DNA from: Gloeobacter kilaueensis JS1
GTDB lineage: Bacteria; Cyanobacteriota; Cyanobacteriia; Gloeobacterales; Gloeobacteraceae
Direction: 5' to 3'
Assembly (NCBI RefSeq): GCF_000484535.1
Contig: NC_022600.1
Span: 3,224,001 to 3,288,000 of the forward strand
Length of the DNA stretch: 64,000 bases
The notes beneath the pieces are model-generated. The model ran no database searches, was not told where the DNA came from, and saw only the letters and a list, made by a program, of their open reading frames with translations. Both the position numbers and the translations under genes were made by a program. Position 1 is the first letter of the stretch; each line of letters opens with the position of its first letter. Positions 1,616 through 12,867 of the stretch are shown here, piece after piece.

Positions 1616-1637
1616 GTAACTGTTCAGGTGCTGGTTT
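1616..1637. repeat. Left terminal inverted repeat of the IS66 element
   Basis: It starts GTAACTGTTCAGGTGC and pairs imperfectly with the inverse complement of 3091-3112. The transposase stop codon (1624-1626) lies inside this repeat. Confidence 0.9.
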
Positions 1638-3057
1638 CCGGGATCAGTGACGGTTGAGCAAAACCCCCATGATAGGTTGCCTGCAACGCTCGCACGAAAA
1701 ACTCCATCGCCGAGCGGCCCTGCCGCCGACACGATTGGATCACACTCAACAAGTCCGCCGTCTGGGCATACCCTGCCTGCGACCGGCTTCCTCCCGACAC
1801 TTTGCGCCGGGTCACAGCCAAGCGTAAGTTCCGCTCCGACAGATTGTTGTCCGGACGCACCGCCGGATTCGACAAAAACTGCCACCACTGCCCAGCGCGC
1901 TCCTGCAACGAGCGCAGCAGTTTGCTCCCTGCATAGGCTGCTTTCGGTTGCCAGGTGCGGATCGCCTGCTCCACCCGCACCCGAAACTGCTGCCCCCAAC
2001 TTTGCCAACTCGCGCTGTCCCCGTCCTGCTGCCACTGCCGGTAGCGCTTGAACGCTTCGTCAATCAGCTCAATGAAGACCGCGCCGATGCCTGCTGGCTC
2101 GGCTGGATGGAGGGCGAGTTTTTTGAAATGCCGCCGCAGATGGGCCAGACACTTTTGCTGCGCCTGCACCTGATAGCCGTTGTAGGCACTGAAGTCATCA
2201 CTGACGAGGGTGCCACAAAAGCGCTCGCCCAACCGACCACGCAGTTCCAAACGCGAGCGCGTCTGCCCGGCATGAAATAGACTCAGCCGCTCGCTGCCAA
2301 AGTGCCACAACCACTCTTTACACCCAGCCACCGGCCAGGGCGTCTCATCCACATACACCACCGCCTCAGTGGCCAGATGCTGCCAGGCCGCCTGCACACT
2401 GGCAGCGACCGCCAGGGCCGTGCGCTCCTTGACTGCCGCCAGCGTCCCCACCGCAGGCCGCCAGCCGCACAAGCTCTCGACGAATTCGGCTTGTTTGTCC
2501 AGACTGAGATGGCCGTAGTGGCCCAACCAACTCAGCACCGCCATGAGCGTGGCATCCAGCTCAAAGTGACCGACCAGACGGCTGGGCCACTTTGGGGTGT
2601 GGGTGCTCCGGCAGTGCGTACAGCATCCAGTCGGGCGGCGAAACTCGACGATTTCGAGAGGCCGCTCGGCAAAACAGGCCACCTGCCGCGCTTCGACGCT
2701 CAGGGTCTGCCACTGCCTCCCGCCGCACTGGGGACACTCCCCCAGCGAGACCGCTTCCAAACGGTCTGGGGTGCCGAAGCCTTTGCGGGTTTTGCCCTGA
2801 TGGCCGGGCTGAGCACCCGGTTTTCTTTTCGGAACCTTGGGTTCTCCTTCGGGCTTGGGTTTGGGTGATTCGGGCTTTGTGAGGAGGTCTGCGGAGGGGG
2901 GACGGCTTGAGGTGGTGCTGTCGGTGGCCAGACGGGTTTGCAACTGTTCAACGATGCCCCCCAGGCGGGTAATGTACTCCAGCAACAAGTCAATCGCCTG
3001 CGGCTGGGGCATCTGCAATAACTCGTCACGGCTGGGCAGGGGTGGTAACGCACTCAT
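1624..3057 (-). CDS. IS66 family transposase (TnpC-type)
   Basis: A 477-residue transposase that cuts and joins the ends of the surrounding IS. In order it has an N-terminal leucine-rich coiled segment (about 15-45), a Pro/Lys-rich linker with the IS66 signature KPGAQPGHQG, a zinc-binding region (CPQCGG and CTHC), and the DDE catalytic domain. The likely catalytic acids are the Asp of VYVDETPW, the Asp of LVSDDFSAY and the Glu of NNLSERNLR. Length is normal for single-gene IS66 elements and no frameshift is visible, so it is probably active. Start is ATG at 3057, 34 bp inside the right inverted repeat. Confidence 0.96.
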   Translation of the reverse strand: MSALPPLPSRDELLQMPQPQAIDLLLEYITRLGGIVEQLQTRLATDSTTSSRPPSADLLTKPESPKPKPEGEPKVPKRKPGAQPGHQGKTRKGFGTPDRLEAVSLGECPQCGGRQWQTLSVEARQVACFAERPLEIVEFRRPTGCCTHCRSTHTPKWPSRLVGHFELDATLMAVLSWLGHYGHLSLDKQAEFVESLCGWRPAVGTLAAVKERTALAVAASVQAAWQHLATEAVVYVDETPWPVAGCKEWLWHFGSERLSLFHAGQTRSRLELRGRLGERFCGTLVSDDFSAYNGYQVQAQQKCLAHLRRHFKKLALHPAEPAGIGAVFIELIDEAFKRYRQWQQDGDSASWQSWGQQFRVRVEQAIRTWQPKAAYAGSKLLRSLQERAGQWWQFLSNPAVRPDNNLSERNLRLAVTRRKVSGGSRSQAGYAQTADLLSVIQSCRRQGRSAMEFFVRALQATYHGGFAQPSLIPETST

Positions 3058-3245: not shown

Positions 3246-3602
3246 CTAACCCACTGTTACCTGGTTGGTCTCGACGGCGGTTGCGCCGTTGACGCCTCTG
3301 GCTACCGCCACCAGCTTGGTGAGGATGGCCTGGTTGGGCACTTTGCCCTTCAAGACGACCGTGCTGCCGGTCTGGGCAACGTAGATCGTGTCGATATCAT
3401 CTACCTCTGGATCGTTGTCGAAGGCAAGCGCAACGCGCTTGGCAAGTCCACTCTGGTCGTACTCACCGTGCAGGCCGACCCGCTCGGGCGCGACCGTCTC
3501 ACCGGAGGGGGTGGTGGGAGCCTGAGCCGGGGCAGCGGCGGCCTGGGGCGGTTTTTCAAGACCAAATAGACGCTGTAGCCATCCCATATCGTCTGAGTCC
3601 AT
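3246..3602 (-). CDS. BON-domain protein
   Basis: A 118-residue protein. Residues 1-15 contain a short hydrophobic stretch (MGWLQRLFGLE), followed by an Ala/Pro-rich linker to about residue 40. A BON domain (about 48-117) has the typical pattern of a helix with LAKRVALAF, then TIYVAQTGSTVVLKGKV, a second helix and a final strand ending in TNQVTV. BON domains are linked to membrane or phospholipid interaction in periplasmic and envelope proteins. The protein has no lipobox or clear signal peptide, so its location is uncertain. It stands alone, transcribed away from the operon at 3821. Confidence 0.8.
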   Translation of the reverse strand: MDSDDMGWLQRLFGLEKPPQAAAAPAQAPTTPSGETVAPERVGLHGEYDQSGLAKRVALAFDNDPEVDDIDTIYVAQTGSTVVLKGKVPNQAILTKLVAVARGVNGATAVETNQVTVG

Positions 3603-3820
3603 GCGAAACGACTTTTCCCCAGCATATTAACCGTGCGGGACCGAAAAACGTCCCCAAAGACAGATGTTGTAATCTCACGATCCCACTCTTCAATAAACTT
3701 TTATCAGGTGGGATGTATACAGCGCGACATCACGGGCGCAATCCTCTCTGGGGGCACCGGTGAGCAGGACAGTCTCCGATTCCGCCATACTTGGTATGGA
3801 AAAAGGACAAGGAAGAAGCG

Positions 3821-5422
3821 GTGGTCGATTCTCAACTGACAGCCGGTGAGGGCGAGGGTATCGTCGCCCAGTTGCATCTGCTCGTCCGGGCCCGTGCAGC
3901 ACTCATCTACATCGTCTCGCCCGAAGAAGGACCGGTGGAGGCGGCCCTCGAACAGGTGGCGGCCCTCGATCGGCCATCGCGCCGCATCCGCCGCTGGGAT
4001 GTGGTGGCAGGCTGGGAGGACACAGGCCAGGCAAAGGGAGCAGCGATTCAGGCGCTCGAGCAGGTGCGCGCCGCCGCCGATGAGCCGGTGCTCTTTTTAA
4101 TCAGAGACCTGCACCCGGCGCTCAGCAATCCCCTGGCCGCTCAAAATTATCCGGTGGTGCGCGCCCTCAAAAAACTGGCGATCGATCTTAAAGACAAGCG
4201 CAAGACGGTGATCTTGCTCAGCCATACGGTGGCGGTGCCCGCCGAGCTGCGCGAGGAGATGGTCGTCGTCGATTTTCCGCTGCCCACTGCCGCTGAAATT
4301 CGCCGCCTTTTGCGCACGAGCGTGCCCGCCGAGCAGTACCAGATTCAAGATCTGGCCGAGGAGCAACTGGTGCGTGCCTGCCAGGGTCTTTCGCGCACCC
4401 GCATCCGCCGGGTACTGGCCCGTGCCCTCGCCGCCAACGAGCGCGTGAGCGAGGGTGACATCGACCTGGTGCTCGAAGAAAAAAAACAGTACGTCCGGCA
4501 GACGGAGGTGCTCGAATTTTATCCGGCCCGCGACTCACTCAAAAGCGTCGGCGGCCTCGAAAACCTCAAAAGCTGGGTGCGCGAGCGGCGGGGCAGCTTC
4601 AGCGAAGGGGCGCGGCGCTACGGCCTGCCCAACCCAAAAGGCGTGCTCCTGGTGGGCATCCAGGGCACCGGCAAATCCCTTTCGGCCCGCACGATCGCCT
4701 GCGAGTGGCGGATGCCACTGCTCAGGCTCGACGCCGGTCGCCTCTTCGGCGGGCTGGTCGGGGAATCGGAAAGCCGGGTGCGCCAGATGATTCAGATTGC
4801 CGAGGCGATGAGCCCCTGCGTGCTCTGGATCGACGAAGTGGACAAAGCTTTTGGCGGCGTCGATGCCAGTGCTTCGGGCGATTCGGGCACCAGCAAGCGC
4901 GTCTTCGGCTCGCTCATCACCTGGATGCAGGAGAAGACCACCCCGGTCTTTATCGTCGCCACCGCCAACAACGTCGAAGTTCTGCCTGCGGAATTTTTGC
5001 GCAAGGGCCGCTTCGATGAGATTTTCTTTCTCAACCTGCCCAACTTGAGCGAGCGCCAGGCGATCTTTCAAGTCCACCTCCAGCGCCTCCGGCCCCAGCG
5101 GCTGCGCGAGTTCGATCTCAAAGCCCTCGCCGCCCACACCCAGAACTTCAGCGGCGCTGAGATCGAGCAGGTGATCGTCGATGCGATGCACCTCGCTTTT
5201 AATAGCCGCCCTGGCCGCGAATTCTCGATGGAAGATATATTCCATAGTGTCGAGCAAACGGTGCCGCTCGCCTCGATCGCCCGCCAGCAGATCGCCCGGC
5301 TCAAGCGCTGGGCTGCCCAGTCGGGAGCCCGCACCGCCTCGATCGACACCGAACTCAGCCAAGAGATCCAGGCGATCGCCGCCCGCCACGGCCTCGACTC
5401 CGTCGAGATCGATGATCCTTAA
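3821..5422 (+). CDS. ycf46: Ycf46-like AAA+ ATPase
   Basis: A 533-residue ATPase. The N-terminal half (about 10-210) resembles a degenerate AAA module with LFLIRDLH in the place of a Walker B motif. The C-terminal half is a canonical AAA+ domain with Walker A GIQGTGKS (about 279-286), Walker B VLWIDEVD (about 334-341) and arginine-finger region RKGRFDE. The arrangement and length fit Ycf46, a plastid/cyanobacterial protein that has been linked to inorganic-carbon responses. I chose GTG at 3821 because AAGGA lies 8-9 nt upstream; an in-frame TTG at 3791 is possible but has no ribosome site. It is the first gene of an operon with Ycf35, DUF2997, a GrpE-like protein and Hsp70, which suggests protein or complex remodelling. 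Confidence 0.88.
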   Translation: MVDSQLTAGEGEGIVAQLHLLVRARAALIYIVSPEEGPVEAALEQVAALDRPSRRIRRWDVVAGWEDTGQAKGAAIQALEQVRAAADEPVLFLIRDLHPALSNPLAAQNYPVVRALKKLAIDLKDKRKTVILLSHTVAVPAELREEMVVVDFPLPTAAEIRRLLRTSVPAEQYQIQDLAEEQLVRACQGLSRTRIRRVLARALAANERVSEGDIDLVLEEKKQYVRQTEVLEFYPARDSLKSVGGLENLKSWVRERRGSFSEGARRYGLPNPKGVLLVGIQGTGKSLSARTIACEWRMPLLRLDAGRLFGGLVGESESRVRQMIQIAEAMSPCVLWIDEVDKAFGGVDASASGDSGTSKRVFGSLITWMQEKTTPVFIVATANNVEVLPAEFLRKGRFDEIFFLNLPNLSERQAIFQVHLQRLRPQRLREFDLKALAAHTQNFSGAEIEQVIVDAMHLAFNSRPGREFSMEDIFHSVEQTVPLASIARQQIARLKRWAAQSGARTASIDTELSQEIQAIAARHGLDSVEIDDP

Positions 5423-5445
5423 AAAGCGTAACGATGAGGCGCTCC

Positions 5446-5820
5446 ATGTCCCACTTCACCACCGTCCGTCTGCAACTAAAAAACCGGGCCGTCCTGCGGA
5501 CCACCCTCGAACAGCTCGGCCACACCGTAAGCGAGAACGCCCCGGTGCGCGGCTACCGGGGCAACAGCACCCGCGCCGACCTGGTCGTCCACCGCCAGAA
5601 CGGCTACGACATCGGCTTTTATCAAAAGGGCGAGGCTCTTGAGATGGTTGCCGACTTCTGGGGTGTGGGGCTCACAGCCGAACAGTTCCTCGCCCCCGTC
5701 CAGCAGCGCTATGCCCACAATCTGCTGTTGGCCACCGCCGCCGAGCAGGGCTTTAGCGTCGAGAGCGAAGAAGTGAGCGGTACCGGTGAGTTGCGGGTCG
5801 TGCTCGGGAGGTGGGCGTGA
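5446..5820 (+). CDS. ycf35: Ycf35 family protein (DUF1257)
   Basis: A 124-residue protein starting MSHFTTVRLQLKNR, the classic start of Ycf35/DUF1257 proteins. An upstream in-frame ATG at 5434 would add only four residues. The family is conserved in cyanobacteria and red-algal plastids and has no established biochemical function. It has no signal peptide or membrane segment and is probably soluble and cytoplasmic. It follows the AAA ATPase by 23 nt. Its stop overlaps the next start by one base (TGATG), so the two are probably translationally coupled. Confidence 0.9.
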   Translation: MSHFTTVRLQLKNRAVLRTTLEQLGHTVSENAPVRGYRGNSTRADLVVHRQNGYDIGFYQKGEALEMVADFWGVGLTAEQFLAPVQQRYAHNLLLATAAEQGFSVESEEVSGTGELRVVLGRWA

Positions 5821-6035
5821 TGGCCGAGTACCAGCGCATCGAATTTGTCATCGGCAAAGATGGCCGGATCACCGAGCAGGTGAGCGGCGCTGTCGGCTCC
5901 CACTGCACCGAGATCACCGCCGCCCTCGAAAATGCCCTGGGCCGGGTAGAAAAGCAGGAGCTGACCAGCGAGTACGACGGAGCCGCCCAGGTGAGCGAAT
6001 CGTTGCCGCACCGCCTCGACCAGGGGAATGCCTAG
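5820..6035 (+). CDS. DUF2997 family small protein
   Basis: A 71-residue acidic protein. It opens with a strand-turn-strand pattern (RIEFVIGKDGRITEQVSG) followed by a helix containing CTEITAALENALG, the usual DUF2997 layout. The family often sits beside Ycf35-type genes in cyanobacteria; no function is established. The ATG at 5820 overlaps the ycf35 stop, and its own end overlaps the next gene by 8 nt, placing it firmly inside the operon. Confidence 0.85.
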   Translation: MAEYQRIEFVIGKDGRITEQVSGAVGSHCTEITAALENALGRVEKQELTSEYDGAAQVSESLPHRLDQGNA

Positions 6036-6669
6036 CCACGACGCACTCTTGCGCAGCTACATGCAGTCTGTCGGTATCGAGAGCTGGCGGCAGCTGGCCC
6101 GGCGGTGCGGCGTATCCGCTCGGGCCGTGCAGCTGGTGCGCCGGGGAGAAGCAGACCAGTTGCGGACGAGGGCGGCCCAGCAACTGGCAGCCGGTCTGGC
6201 GGTGGATCTGCCCACGTTTTTAGGTGATTTTGGCAGGCTGGATCTGCCCCGGTCCCCCCGCGACCGCGACGCTCTCTGGGCGGAGTGCCGGCGGCTCCAA
6301 CAGCAGCTCGACGAACAAAAAGCGCTACTTACCGCCCAGTTTCGCACCCAGACCGCCGGGCAGCTCCTTGCCCTGCTGGTGCAGGCTCCCACCCTGCGCG
6401 AGGCCGCCCTCAAAAATCCCGCCCTGAAGGCGGCAAGTTTTGTGCATCTGCTCGCTCCCCTCGAAAGCCTGATGGCCGACTGGGGCTACCGGACCATCGG
6501 GGCGGTCTGGCAGCCCGTATCCTTCGACCCCGACCTCCACCAGCCCGACAGCGAGAAGATCGTGCCGGGTGAGGCGGTCTACGTTCGCTTCGTGGGCTAC
6601 CGGAGCGACGACGGTGCTGTGCTCTGCAAGGCAAAAGTGAGCCGCACGCTGCCGGGAGGGAGTCCATGA
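6028..6669 (+). CDS. HTH-GrpE-like fusion protein
   Basis: A 213-residue protein with two parts. Residues 1-65 look like a Cro/C1-type helix-turn-helix (SWRQLARRCGVSARAVQLVRRG). After a Glu/Gln-rich coiled stretch (about 80-110) comes a region resembling the C-terminal half of GrpE. That region has helical pairs, then FDPDLHQ, then a small beta domain with PGEAVYVRFVGYRSDDG and CKAKVSRT. GrpE proteins release ADP from Hsp70 chaperones. The adjacent Hsp70 gene overlaps by 4 nt (ATGA), supporting a dedicated exchange factor. The HTH may serve as a protein- or DNA-binding adaptor. The GrpE assignment is by pattern and could be challenged. Confidence 0.72.
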   Translation: MPSHDALLRSYMQSVGIESWRQLARRCGVSARAVQLVRRGEADQLRTRAAQQLAAGLAVDLPTFLGDFGRLDLPRSPRDRDALWAECRRLQQQLDEQKALLTAQFRTQTAGQLLALLVQAPTLREAALKNPALKAASFVHLLAPLESLMADWGYRTIGAVWQPVSFDPDLHQPDSEKIVPGEAVYVRFVGYRSDDGAVLCKAKVSRTLPGGSP

Positions 6670-8201
6670 GCACCGTCGCCATCGACTTCGGCACCTCCAA
6701 CACCGTCGTCTGCATCGAAAATCAGGTCAAAAAAACCGCCGAGACCCTCGTCTTTCCCTTCAGCTTGAGCTACCAGGGCGGCCCGGCGCTGGTGCCCTCG
6801 CTCATCTACGTCGAAGCCGGAGGTTCGGTTTGCATCGGCAGGGACGCCGCCCAAAAAAGCAACCGCACCCGTTTATTTCAGGGCTTCAAGCGCGAGCTGT
6901 CCCAAGAATTTACCCCTTCGCCGCGCTGGATCGACAATGTCGAGTACGGCCCGGAGACGGTGGCAGAACTCTTTCTGCGCGAACTCATCGCCGCTATCGG
7001 GCAACAGCAGATCGTCCCCAGCCAGCTCATCGCCAGTGCGCCGGTGGGCGCTTACGAGCGTTACTTGCGCTGGCTTCGCGAAGTGTGCGTCCGCTTCAAG
7101 CTGCCGGAGCCGGTGGTGGTCGATGAACCGACGGCGGCGGCTCTGGGCTACGCGATCGATGAACCGGGAGCCCTGGTGCTCGTCATCGATCTGGGGGGCG
7201 GCACGCTGGATCTGGCGCTGGTGCGGACGAGCAAGTTGCGCCCAGGGGAGCGCGCCTACCGGGCGGAGGTGCTGGCCAAGTCCGACCGGCCCTGGGGCTG
7301 CGGCGGGGTCGATATCGACCAGTGGATCGCTGAAGATTACCTGACCCGCCGGGGATTCAGCCGCGCCCAGGTAGAAACGTCAGCCTGGCAGAATCTGCTC
7401 CTGGTGGCCGAAGCGGTCAAAATTCGCCTTTCGACCCACCGCGAGGCCCGCGAGAGCTGGCTCGACGAGGAGAGCTTCGAGACCTTCGAGGTCCACCTCG
7501 ACCGCGAGCGCTTCGAGGCGATTCTCGAACACAACCTGTTGTTGGAGCGGCTGCGCGAGGCGATCGACGAAGTGCTCGATCAAGCCTACGGCAAGGGCAT
7601 CGCCAAAAAAGCGATCCAGCACGTGCTGCTGGTAGGCGGCACGAGCTTGATCCCGGCTGTCCAGAAACTCGTCACAGGCTACTTTGGCCGCGAGCGGGTG
7701 CATTTTGGCAGGCCCTTCGAGGCCGTCGCCCACGGCGCGCTCAGTCTGGCCCACTACAGCAGCCTCGACGACCTCCTGCGCCACACCTACGCGCTGCGCC
7801 ACTGGAACCCCTATGCCCGCCACTACGAGTACCTGCCCATCTTTGCCAGCGGCACCTCCTACCCGGCCACTGCCGAGCCGGTCCTCCTGCAGGCCAACGC
7901 CAGCGGCCAGCAGGAGGTGAGCCTGGTGGTGGGAGAACTGAGCAGCGAGGCGACCACCGAAGTCTACGAGGATGCCGCCGGGATGCTGCGCACCCGCGCC
8001 GGGAGTGCTGACAGCAGTTTTCGGCCCCTGGGCAAACGCAATCAGGTGAACTTCGTTCTCGATCCGCCCGGCACCGCCGGGGTGGACCGCCTCGAAGTAC
8101 TCTTCACCGTCGATCAGGCCCGCACCCTGCGCGCCACCGTCCGCGACCTTTCGACCGACGCCCTCTTAGTCGATGCCCAGCCGGTGGGCCGATTGAGCTG
8201 A
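6666..8201 (+). CDS. Hsp70 family (DnaK-like) chaperone, divergent
   Basis: A 511-residue Hsp70-type ATPase. The phosphate-1 loop AIDFGTSNTVV lies at residues 5-15, the phosphate-2 loop LVIDLGGGTLDLAL near 170, and the adenosine motif HVLLVGGTSLIPAV near 320. The nucleotide-binding domain is complete. The C-terminal substrate part (about 385-511) is shorter than in DnaK and ends in a beta-sandwich-like region without a helical lid. Divergent Hsp70s of this shape usually serve specific clients. Translation is coupled to the HTH-GrpE gene (ATGA overlap). It closes the operon that begins with the Ycf46-like ATPase. Confidence 0.93.
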   Translation: MSTVAIDFGTSNTVVCIENQVKKTAETLVFPFSLSYQGGPALVPSLIYVEAGGSVCIGRDAAQKSNRTRLFQGFKRELSQEFTPSPRWIDNVEYGPETVAELFLRELIAAIGQQQIVPSQLIASAPVGAYERYLRWLREVCVRFKLPEPVVVDEPTAAALGYAIDEPGALVLVIDLGGGTLDLALVRTSKLRPGERAYRAEVLAKSDRPWGCGGVDIDQWIAEDYLTRRGFSRAQVETSAWQNLLLVAEAVKIRLSTHREARESWLDEESFETFEVHLDRERFEAILEHNLLLERLREAIDEVLDQAYGKGIAKKAIQHVLLVGGTSLIPAVQKLVTGYFGRERVHFGRPFEAVAHGALSLAHYSSLDDLLRHTYALRHWNPYARHYEYLPIFASGTSYPATAEPVLLQANASGQQEVSLVVGELSSEATTEVYEDAAGMLRTRAGSADSSFRPLGKRNQVNFVLDPPGTAGVDRLEVLFTVDQARTLRATVRDLSTDALLVDAQPVGRLS

Positions 8202-8213
8202 TGGGCGCAAAGT

Positions 8214-8606
8214 TTATCCATTGTCGGGGCGGGTGAGAGGCGATTTTGCTGGTTCTGAAACTTCCTCAAGCTTCAGCTCTCTGCTCAAAAAATAGTTCAA
8301 GAACGTGCGAATCACCGCGATGAGGGCGAGCTTGCCCAGTTCTTCAAACGTCGGCGCAACGGTAGTAGCCAGAATGTCCGCCCCCAGTTGAAATTCGAGT
8401 GCCAGCGCCAGCCAGGTACCAAAGCGCAGCCGGATCTGGTTGAACGGAAAATCCTGTCCCTGCGGGCGGCGGCTGAGTTCGAGGCCGAGCACGAGGGTGC
8501 GAAAAAGACCAAACACGATACAGGCGACCGAAGCCGTCTCCAGGCAGAAGCGGGCCACCGCCACCGTTGCTTTGAGAGCGGATTCAAACAGGGCAAAATT
8601 CTCCAT
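8214..8606 (-). CDS. DUF1622 membrane protein
   Basis: A 130-residue membrane protein with about three hydrophobic segments: one near 15-42 (VAVARFCLETASVACIVFG), one near 64-80 and one near 85-105. The charged pattern RLRFGTWLALALEFQLGADIL matches the conserved core of DUF1622, a family of small inner-membrane proteins of unknown function. It converges on the Hsp70 gene, with 12 nt between the stops. The C-terminal tail is polar and probably cytoplasmic. Confidence 0.82.
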   Translation of the reverse strand: MENFALFESALKATVAVARFCLETASVACIVFGLFRTLVLGLELSRRPQGQDFPFNQIRLRFGTWLALALEFQLGADILATTVAPTFEELGKLALIAVIRTFLNYFLSRELKLEEVSEPAKSPLTRPDNG

Positions 8607-10435: not shown

Positions 10436-11665
10436 CTAACCGGGAAGATCCAGGTACTGCAGCGCTTCGAGAAAAGACAGCTCCTTATGGCGGCGCAGCC
10501 CGTCCGGACGGTCCGGATTGAGGCCCGTAAAGGTCAATCCCGTGCGCTGGTAATCGATAAAACTCGCGTAGCGGGTTAGTGCCTCCAGGCAGGTCTGGGC
10601 CAGGCTAAGGATTTCCGGATTGAACTGGCGCTCTGCAACCCGCACGTAGGTAGACAGGCGCTCAATGGCATAGGAAAAGCCGGTGTTAAAAAGCGGCAAT
10701 CCGCGCTGGGCAATTTGAGCAAACAGTTCGATGGCTTTGTGGTGCTCGCCCAGGCGAGCGAGCTGTTCTGCCCGGATCGCCGGACCATCCGGTAGCCAGG
10801 TAAACCAGTTCATCAGATTTTCTGGCCAGTCGTGCAACCGGTCGAGTTCGCCGAAGCGCAGCAGGGCGTAAGCGCCGACGGTGGCGGCGATCGGATCGTT
10901 CAATTTGCCGTACAGCAGTTCTTCGGCGTGGTTTGCGATCGTCTGGGCTTCCTGCAGATAGCCGCGACTACGAAACTGCAACAGTTGCCGGGCCGCCTCG
11001 TGCTGGACGATCAAGCCGATCTGCCAGCCCGGTGCGTCGGTGCGATAGACGAGTGGATCGGCACCAGGCCCGATGGCCTGCAGGTACACGAGGTTCTGGG
11101 GCTGCTGGCCCTGCTGCAAAAGTTGAACCAGGGCAACATCGTCCTGGGGGGACAGTTGCAGCTTCAGGCGGTAGGCTTGGGCCGCCTCCGGGATCGACAC
11201 CGACTCAGCACTCAGCTGCCAGGGCGACTGAACGAGCCGGTAGCCGTCCATAAGACTGCCGCCATAAAGGCGCAGCGCGACATCGCTCGTCCTGATCGCT
11301 GCTTTTGGCGCACCTTTGAAACTGGGGGTGCGCTTTTTGAACTTATCGAAGTAGCTGTTCCAATCGAGGGCAAAGGTGCTGCCCGCCAGCTGCGGCGCAT
11401 CGGGTGTCCAGACGACGGCCTCGCCCGTCAGGGTAACGGTCTCGTTCTCCGGCCCGTCCTCATCGACGCTGAAGGGGGCGCTGTAGGCCGTCCCATCCGG
11501 CAGGGCCGCCGAGACAAAATACGCTCCCGGCGACAGGGACACGGCCCGGTCGAGCGTCGTCCGAGCAACCAGATTGAGATCGGCGCTCCTGATTTCGATG
11601 GGCAGGGCGGCGGTGTTCAGTTCGCCGGAGGGTGCTTCCCCCAGTACAAAGCGGACCCACTTCAC
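10436..11665 (-). CDS. Unknown beta-sandwich plus helical-repeat protein of the caspase operon
   Basis: A 409-residue protein with no recognised family name. Residues 1-75 form a beta-rich module (LPIEIRSADLNLVARTTLDRAVSLSPGAYFVSAALPDG) similar in style to the tail of the preceding caspase. Residues 75-200 are a second beta-rich region. Residues 200-409 are helical with a TPR/HEAT-like rhythm (QLARLGEHHKAIELFAQIAQRG). It starts at GTG 11665 with AGGAGG upstream, overlapping the caspase stop (GTGA). Last gene of the three-gene operon. Its coupling suggests it regulates or presents substrate to the caspase. No signal peptide. Confidence 0.7.
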   Translation of the reverse strand: MKWVRFVLGEAPSGELNTAALPIEIRSADLNLVARTTLDRAVSLSPGAYFVSAALPDGTAYSAPFSVDEDGPENETVTLTGEAVVWTPDAPQLAGSTFALDWNSYFDKFKKRTPSFKGAPKAAIRTSDVALRLYGGSLMDGYRLVQSPWQLSAESVSIPEAAQAYRLKLQLSPQDDVALVQLLQQGQQPQNLVYLQAIGPGADPLVYRTDAPGWQIGLIVQHEAARQLLQFRSRGYLQEAQTIANHAEELLYGKLNDPIAATVGAYALLRFGELDRLHDWPENLMNWFTWLPDGPAIRAEQLARLGEHHKAIELFAQIAQRGLPLFNTGFSYAIERLSTYVRVAERQFNPEILSLAQTCLEALTRYASFIDYQRTGLTFTGLNPDRPDGLRRHKELSFLEALQYLDLPG

Positions 11666-12867
11666 GGCGCACCTCCTGCAACCTTTACCTGCCAGCGCGC
11701 AAGCGGTGGGCGGGCCAGCTGAATGCGGGTGTAATTTTTTAGCCCCGGCTGGGGAGGATCGACTTTGCCGCGCAGGATGTACGAGCCACCCGGCAACTGG
11801 CTCCGGTAAGGATGGGGATCGACTGGGGCAACGAGATTCCAGATCTCGGCGTCTTCTTCGCTGCACACCTGGACATGTACACTGGCTAGCGCTCCCGGCG
11901 GCAACACCTCCAGTTGAATTTCGACCGTCGGCGGAGCCGTTAGATAACAGATCACCGCGTCCTTGACCAGGCCGTTGGTAATGCACTCCTGATCGGTCTT
12001 GTAGAGCGCATTCAGGCGGCTGATCTCGTCGCTCAGGCTTTTGGCGAGCGAGTTGACCGTCACCCGCCAGCGGGGTACGTCCTCTTCCTGCTCGGGTGGG
12101 GTGCCCGCCAGATTCTTGAGGCACTGGATGAGCGCTTTGCTGAAGATGCTTTGATCGCCTTTGATCGCATAGGCTTTGCTGTCGGCGACGGCAGCGTAGA
12201 AGATAGGGGCGCAGCGATCGTCCCGGCCTCCCAGCTCGATATCCCAGGGAGCGGTCGTATTGAGCTTTTCAAAGTTCTTGAACTTGGCCGGTAGATTGCG
12301 GCAGGCATCGATGAAGTAAAACTGCTTCTGGGCGATTTCAGGACAATTTGCAGAAAAGGCCATGCCGTCGAAGATTTCGCGGCTGCGCACGGCGTTGGTG
12401 AGCGCCGAACCAAGACCGTCGCCAAAATTTTCCAATAACAAGATCGAATCCTGGCGGCTCGCCTGCACGCCATGACCGGCGAAGTAAAAAAGGGCAATGC
12501 CATCCTTATGCGTACTGGCGTCGGTGCGCCATTCGGCGAGGGCCGTCAGAAAGCTCTTGAGCGTGCCGTCGCCCGCTCGATCGAGAATTGCCGCAAGTTC
12601 CGGCTCCGCCTCGATTTCTTGTTCAGAAGGCGAAAGGAGCAGACGACAGGTAGCAAGCGGCACCGGCAGGGTGCTCTGGTTGTCGATGAGCCAGCGATAA
12701 AAGCGAAAGGCGCTCAGGGCCGTCGAAGAAAGCTGCTTCATCCCGAAACTCTCTGGGGCGGGTGTACCACCTCCTTCGGGCAGGTGGGGATAGTGGCTGA
12801 TACCGACGATCAGGGCGTGAAAACCCGGTTCGCCCTTCAGGATTTTTCTGTTATCGACCAGCAGCAT
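11662..12867 (-). CDS. Caspase-like (peptidase C14) protease
   Basis: A 401-residue protein with a caspase-fold domain at about 10-310. It opens FHALIVGISHYPHLP, has the catalytic His132 in FYFAGHGVQ and the catalytic Cys189 in FYFIDACRN. The C-terminal 90 residues form a separate beta-sandwich (LEVLPPGALASVHVQV, then LPGGSYILRGKV), resembling the start of the next protein. C14 enzymes of bacteria usually cut after basic residues and often act in programmed responses. It overlaps both neighbours by 4 nt (ATGA with the hydrolase, GTGA with the downstream gene), so the three are strictly coupled. No transmembrane segment, so probably cytoplasmic. Confidence 0.92.
   Translation of the reverse strand: MLLVDNRKILKGEPGFHALIVGISHYPHLPEGGGTPAPESFGMKQLSSTALSAFRFYRWLIDNQSTLPVPLATCRLLLSPSEQEIEAEPELAAILDRAGDGTLKSFLTALAEWRTDASTHKDGIALFYFAGHGVQASRQDSILLLENFGDGLGSALTNAVRSREIFDGMAFSANCPEIAQKQFYFIDACRNLPAKFKNFEKLNTTAPWDIELGGRDDRCAPIFYAAVADSKAYAIKGDQSIFSKALIQCLKNLAGTPPEQEEDVPRWRVTVNSLAKSLSDEISRLNALYKTDQECITNGLVKDAVICYLTAPPTVEIQLEVLPPGALASVHVQVCSEEDAEIWNLVAPVDPHPYRSQLPGGSYILRGKVDPPQPGLKNYTRIQLARPPLARWQVKVAGGAP

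Follow-up and report, generated by a model that had tools for sequence, protein, structure and literature searches.

What do the products of an operon that joins an AAA+ ATPase to an Hsp70 act upon? The question is raised by a stretch of 64,000 nucleotides from the cyanobacterium Gloeobacter kilaueensis JS1 (C1:3224001-3288000 of a 4.72-Mb single-contig genome; the window means this whole stretch), where five genes at positions 3821-8201, all on the + strand, encode Ycf46, Ycf35 (DUF1257), a DUF2997 protein, a GrpE-like protein (gene 4) and an Hsp70. The initial annotation proposed a machine that assembles or unfolds a specific client, perhaps a photosynthetic or CO2-related complex. The idea of a dedicated client is kept as likely, with proteins bearing an N-terminal double LGG motif found to track the five-gene set (the module) across the phylum; the photosynthetic or CO2-related client is not. 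The operon is best read, with a probability of roughly 0.6, as a dedicated chaperone machine for these LGG-tagged proteins, which could not be seen in the window because they lie elsewhere in the genome.

The tag, shared by genes that neighbour the module, is a duplicated N-terminal motif, YDAVLGG-x-GVVLGG[LI]EGVK, followed by a HEAT-like segment, and its invariant or near-invariant positions are D-x-V-[LI]-G-G ... V-[LM]-G-G-[LI]-x-G-x-K. Two LGG-type motifs were identified in 55 of 62 tag proteins, spaced by 13 residues in 48 of those 55. The domains after the tag are mutually unrelated and comprise WD40, pentapeptide, LRV, GUN4 and FGE-sulfatase. A few repeat proteins without the tag fell into the neighbour cluster on the strength of their repeats; counts were restricted to proteins matched by the tag profile.

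Module-type Ycf46 was identified in 27 of the 292 genomes of the phylum, an intact module Hsp70 in 24 and both in 21, and a strong tag in 26. The tag is present in all 21 genomes with both proteins and in 5 of the remaining 271 (Fisher p = 1.2e-27, in a test that ignores relatedness). These five are two of the nine genomes with a partial module (G072 and G121) and three of the 262 without module Ycf46 and Hsp70, all weak cases: a 66-aa piece in G199, a short piece followed by a ycf46 remnant in G284, and a tag lacking the LGG motif in G167. Within the six genera that offer an internal contrast (g1, g13, g14, g21, g25 and g46), every species with module Ycf46 and Hsp70 is tagged and the module-less species have no LGG tag. 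Co-presence persists where the parts are dispersed, as in G000 (the window genome), G099, G039 and G177.

The genus Gloeobacter provides a test free of seed bias, since the tag seeds came from module neighbourhoods and none of them from Gloeobacter. The window genome and its congener G294 each have the module and two tagged pentapeptide-type genes (domains checked in the former), G293 has neither module nor tags, and G292, which has no tag, retains a decayed module: fragments of ycf46 and hsp70 next to the same BON gene. Two natural fusions join the partners in one chain, both with a module-type Hsp70: Hsp70-(GAVLGGLAGAKKRLG)-WD40 of 904 aa in the metagenome-assembled genome (MAG) UBA8803 (L155) and Hsp70-(GASLGGLAGTKKRLG)-WD40 of 849 aa in G172 (L132). 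The latter genome contains module Ycf46 and no clear separate tag gene, an exception explained by its fusion. Module and tag are very probably linked in function, and their joint gain and loss marks the tagged proteins as likely dedicated targets.

Several observations weigh against this reading, besides the relatedness ignored above. The first look for tags scored at most 17 candidates per genome, and some tags may be missed. The tagged genes of the window genome lie about 1.18 Mb from the module, and one of the two has lost its first LGG. Tags were found within 15 kb of module genes in 36 of 64 cases, a figure biased upward because the seeds were drawn from module neighbourhoods. A strict requirement for the GrpE-like gene is contradicted by G229 and G193, in which the gene 4 survey failed to detect it, and by G282, where none was detected next to hsp70; the Hsp70 in turn may be dispensable, as G072 and G121 retain tags while their hsp70 is broken. 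Finally, the canonical Hsp70 interdomain linker is unrecognisable in the alignment to DnaK.

The genes concerned and their parts are the following:

3821-5422, + strand: module-type ycf46, AAA+ ATPase of 533 aa, GTG start (Pfam AAA 5.8e-31, AAA_lid_3 1.5e-8)
Within Ycf46: N-terminal region, about 1-240; AAA domain, about 265-480
5446-5820, + strand: module-type ycf35 (DUF1257), 124 aa, ATG start (Pfam DUF1257 2.7e-30)
5820-6035, + strand: DUF2997 gene, 71 aa (Pfam DUF2997 4.1e-21)
6028-6669, + strand: gene 4, whole open reading frame (ORF), with no accepted Pfam match
6028-6237, + strand: N-terminal segment of gene 4 resembling a helix-turn-helix (HTH), from the alignment and by inspection
6265-6669, + strand: GrpE-like coiled coil and C-terminal beta domain of gene 4, from the profile against the PDB
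6666-8201, + strand: hsp70, whole ORF (Pfam HSP70 4.4e-28)
6666-7790, + strand: nucleotide-binding domain of the Hsp70 (Pfam HSP70; profile match to DnaK)
7818-8201, + strand: short C-terminal region of the Hsp70 resembling a beta substrate-binding domain, from the DnaK alignment
C1:2053625 and C1:2054502 of the window genome: the two tagged genes, pentapeptide-type

The tight order described in the initial annotation was borne out: a gap of 23 bp separates ycf46 from ycf35, and overlaps of 1, 8 and 4 bp (the last an ATGA) join ycf35 to DUF2997, DUF2997 to gene 4 and gene 4 to hsp70. The order is identical in G294, and comparison of the two genomes indicates purifying selection on all five genes (nonsynonymous-to-synonymous ratio, pN/pS, 0.26-0.45). 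Promoter and terminator scans gave nothing informative. No ferredoxin is encoded among the window genes at 3246-8606, so no Fed7 stands beside this ycf35, the neighbours being ycf46 and gene 4/hsp70. Upstream of the operon lies an IS66-like transposase (1624-3057, - strand; family by inspection), flanked on its far side by subtilase-like ORFs (97-1215, + strand, and a short one at 1212-1550, - strand). A caspase-like ORF (11662-12867, - strand; peptidase C14 type by inspection) lies a few kb downstream.

The expected conservation beyond close relatives was also found. A survey that combined a gene 4 search, the regions around its matches and a scan of GTDB with the Hsp70 showed the set of five genes, or the greater part of it, together in many cyanobacterial families, with varying order and strand; absence outside close relatives, which would have spoken against the machine, is therefore not the case. 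Carriers include Nostoc linckia z4, Dolichospermum, Anabaena, Cuspidothrix and an Oscillatoriaceae MAG, among others. Parts of the set were identified in Microcoleus and Spirulina, and dispersed parts in G039, G099 and G177. Most of the phototrophic cyanobacteria sampled lack the module, which is thus a conserved yet sporadic cyanobacterial element. No module Hsp70 was identified in the plasmid collection at E <= 1e-60. In several Nostocales a gene pair is inserted between DUF2997 and the GrpE-like gene (L053 6670-8375, likewise L118, L119, L151 and L152); it comprises an AAA_21 ATPase related to the AbiLi/AriA/HEC-01A models and a protein of about 170 aa, and is defence-like although inside the operon.

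The names Ycf46 and Ycf35 hold at the level of family and not as the universal proteins, since both are paralogues in separate clades. The window genome contains four genes each for DUF1257 and Ycf46, and three for DUF2997. Among the 26 genomes searched, bit scores separate the module type of Ycf46, at 650-750 bits, from two widespread types, at about 510 and 405 bits; DUF1257 is likewise divided into fed7-linked, module and ycf46-linked types. With membership taken directly from the trees, module Ycf46 (fork 100/94, 24 rows) and module Ycf35 (fork 95/89, 17 rows) each form a clade of their own apart from the universal copies, and in both trees the window genome and G294 group with G085. The window Ycf46 shares 51-54% identity over about 500 residues with universal class 1 and belongs to the Ycf46 family; its best PDB sequence matches are AAA ATPases of the Cdc48/p97 type. 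Universal Ycf46 and Ycf35 copies were present in every genome examined, and the canonical ycf35-DUF2997 pair of the window genome stands separately at C1:78284-78868. A further, very divergent ycf35-DUF2997-ycf46 cluster of this genome (L011 6336-8657, G000:C1 about 1.787 Mb) has a pentapeptide protein downstream, without LGG tag.

Neither Ycf35 nor DUF2997 had a meaningful match among PDB sequences. The AF2 model of Ycf35 is a compact alpha/beta structure (predicted local distance difference test score, pLDDT, 91) for which Foldseek returned no match at E <= 0.001; a VIA Z of at most 6.2, to KA1/TBP-like arrangements, was too weak to name the fold. The DUF2997 model was poor (pLDDT 52) and was set aside; the alignment of the module set contains an invariant Cys29.

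Of the description of gene 4 as an HTH-GrpE protein, the GrpE part was retained as GrpE-like. Among all PDB sequences its family profile matches E. coli GrpE best (1dkg_A, E = 0.012), in a collinear alignment over the coiled coil and the beta domain, with the common motifs DPxxHQ and GY...A.V; in Pfam the likeness stays under the threshold. The HTH has no accepted Pfam match and is assigned by inspection; a Pfam Death match (E = 0.024) that sits on the same segment was judged probably a chance one. Most relatives have an N-terminal hydrophobic segment, in place of the HTH-like one or before it; it is probably transmembrane and suggests that the protein is anchored in the membrane. Gloeobacter lacks the hydrophobic segment, the window version having only the HTH-like one.

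The Hsp70 profile matches DnaK at 1.3e-38, with the phosphate and adenosine motifs aligned, as in an actin-like ATPase core. The DnaK beta substrate-binding domain aligns to query residues 390-429 and weakly to 474-505 of 518. The C-terminal helical lid is lacking, the protein stopping where the DnaK beta domain stops, and it is therefore described as Hsp70-like and lidless. In two distant genomes of the phylum (G026:C62, L072, and G044:C227, L073) a GrpE-like gene and an Hsp70 gene are adjacent in the opposite order, without tags and without module-type Ycf46; this is possibly the ancestral pair.

On physical binding, the tag-reading subunit, the direction of remodelling and the physiological role, we infer the following. 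At the centre of the machine, a lidless Hsp70 would be served by a dedicated GrpE-like exchange factor, which in many cases outside Gloeobacter is probably membrane-anchored; Ycf46, an AAA+ protein resembling p97, and the small accessory proteins Ycf35 and DUF2997 would complete it. The LGG segment would be bound as an extended hydrophobic peptide, most likely in the beta groove of the Hsp70, comparable to the binding of a single IscU motif by HscA. That groove is favoured because the motif is hydrophobic, extended and fused next to Hsp70 in nature; the odds that the Hsp70 itself reads it are about even. Ycf46 or Ycf35/DUF2997 could be the reader instead, given the tag gene that overlaps ycf35 in G177 and the tags that G072 and G121 retain despite a broken hsp70. 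ATP cycling, GrpE-like exchange and Ycf46 remodelling might then keep the tagged proteins apart or unfolded, or assemble them on demand, and their variable C-terminal domains (WD40, pentapeptide, LRV, GUN4, FGE-type) might serve, under stress or conflict, as scaffolds or sensors or in binding a target. The odds of such a stress or conflict role are somewhat less than even. In its broadest and more tentative form, the proposal is a machine with its own peptide code, in which the double LGG directs numerous unrelated sensors and scaffolds to a single chaperone core, possibly as an immunity or stress switch. To our knowledge, such client-tagging logic has not been described for any bacterial chaperone.

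Other explanations were weighed against the chaperone machine for tagged proteins. An Hsp70-assisted machine for assembly or repair of a photosystem, phycobilisome or carbon-concentrating component would agree with the GUN4 domain among tagged proteins, with the conservation of the universal ycf35-DUF2997-fed7 cluster in cyanobacteria (PMC4284462) and with the universal Ycf46 of Synechocystis (slr0374), for which PMC7496141, citing Jiang 2015, reports a carbon phenotype, with reduced EcaB and an effect on CO2 use. That phenotype is not simply transferable, as the trees separate module Ycf46 and Ycf35 from the universal copies; moreover, a sporadic module (27/292 genomes for its Ycf46), lost within genera including the window's own and with no recurring photosynthesis gene among the neighbours examined, makes this explanation very improbable. 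Genomic hitchhiking, in which module and tagged genes merely share a mobile island, is equally hard to sustain. The proximity of many tags to module genes (the 36 of 64), transposases on a tag plasmid and the IS66-like transposase near the window operon agree with it, but co-presence holds with dispersed parts, hitchhiking does not account for the coupled loss in Gloeobacter, where tags and module are 1.18 Mb apart in the window genome, and the Hsp70-LGG-WD40 fusions also speak against it. The fusions also place the motif internally, which tells against LGG as a processing site of the double-glycine leader type, with chaperones delivering tagged proteins to a peptidase. The repeated xLGG near the N-terminus would suit this idea; it appears very improbable as no peptidase was identified in the module or consistently beside it among the neighbours examined, and as the helical segment after the motif is also conserved, which a cleaved leader does not need.

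The last alternative is a functional refinement of the chaperone machine and not its opposite: a conflict system triggered by invaders or damage, in which the chaperone core sets the threshold and the tagged proteins are variable sensors and effectors. It is a serious though minority possibility. The C-terminal repertoire (FGS, GUN4, propellers, pentapeptide) and the plan of a constant core with variable arms are those of PMC7159879; this match, together with the defence-like ATPase genes that interrupt the operon in several Nostocales, makes a conflict or stress role plausible but unproved. The AbiLi/AriA-like ATPase, the PIN and HEPN domains nearby, the sporadic distribution and loss, the tags on plasmids (six records) and the local arrays and duplication of tagged genes (up to eight around one module, L137) point the same way. 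Against it, the tagged proteins scanned yielded no effector nuclease of a known kind and no caspase, TIR or STAND domain; the core has no MoxR, vWA or GTPases, and in PADLOC 2.0 Ycf46 and Hsp70 match through generic ATPase domains only, with no match for Ycf35, DUF2997 and gene 4. Pfam reported no effector-associated or Death-like adaptor domain on the tagged proteins scanned.

Some tagged loci were seen more closely. At L117 (6834-11351) module ycf46 is directly preceded by three tandem-duplicated tagged genes, the one checked being of FGE-sulfatase type. The intergenic sequences there are repeated, and a HEPN-domain gene separates the tagged genes from ycf46. A diversity-generating retroelement was considered for FGE-type tagged genes and rejected, the repeats being gene duplications; no reverse transcriptase was present among the few neighbours checked. 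On the conjugative Nostoc edaphicum plasmid NZ_CP054695.1 (28713-30543, L273) a tagged GUN4 protein adjoins a SUMF1/EgtB-type gene. The viral collection yielded one weak tag relative and nothing else.

Among the nearest described systems are the MoxR-vWA ternary and GTPase-centric conflict systems, all NTP-dependent and some with HSP70 and GrpE, of Kaur et al. 2020 (PMC7159879). The module shares with them a constant chaperone-type core with variable proteins ending in WD40, pentapeptide, FGS and GUN4 domains, and both are patchy, loss-prone and diversified by duplication. They differ in the core, here formed by Ycf46, DUF1257, DUF2997, GrpE-like and Hsp70 with no MoxR, vWA, GTPase or VMAP, and in the tag, here a double LGG motif with a HEAT-like segment. 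No MoxR AAA+ with vWA or TRAFAC GTPase core is among the five genes or recurs in the neighbours examined, and the text of PMC7159879 does not contain the words ycf and DUF1257. The universal ycf35-DUF2997-fed7 cluster, 'cluster g' of PMC4284462, has paralogous Ycf35 and DUF2997 side by side, whereas the module lacks the ferredoxin and adds Ycf46, GrpE-like and Hsp70.

In open-access PMC full text, Ycf46 or Ycf35 joined with Hsp70 was not found, plastid genome reports aside, and DUF1257 or DUF2997 is named in just three papers, with no function assigned to either; as far as this literature goes, the tag family and the chaperone-tag system predicted here appear previously undescribed. Module-type Ycf35 and DUF2997 are now tied to an Hsp70/GrpE-like/AAA+ set and to concrete, testable partner proteins, and an annotation of Ycf46/Ycf35 with photosynthesis or carbon uptake is not warranted for every copy. 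If LGG is a chaperone address, it would explain a leader common to many cyanobacterial WD40, pentapeptide, GUN4 and FGE-type proteins and would provide a defined tag-machine pair for biochemistry.

Among chaperones, the module resembles DnaK-GrpE(-ClpB) in combining an Hsp70 with an exchange factor of the GrpE type and an AAA+ protein, and HscA-IscU offers a precedent for dedicating an Hsp70 to a client that bears a motif. It departs from DnaK and HscA in an Hsp70 of unusual linker that stops short of the lid, in a GrpE-like factor often membrane-anchored or HTH-bearing, and in the lack of a J-protein among the module genes. Compared with DnaK-ClpB and HscA-IscU, the AAA+ protein is Ycf46 and not ClpB, and many putative clients share one tag.

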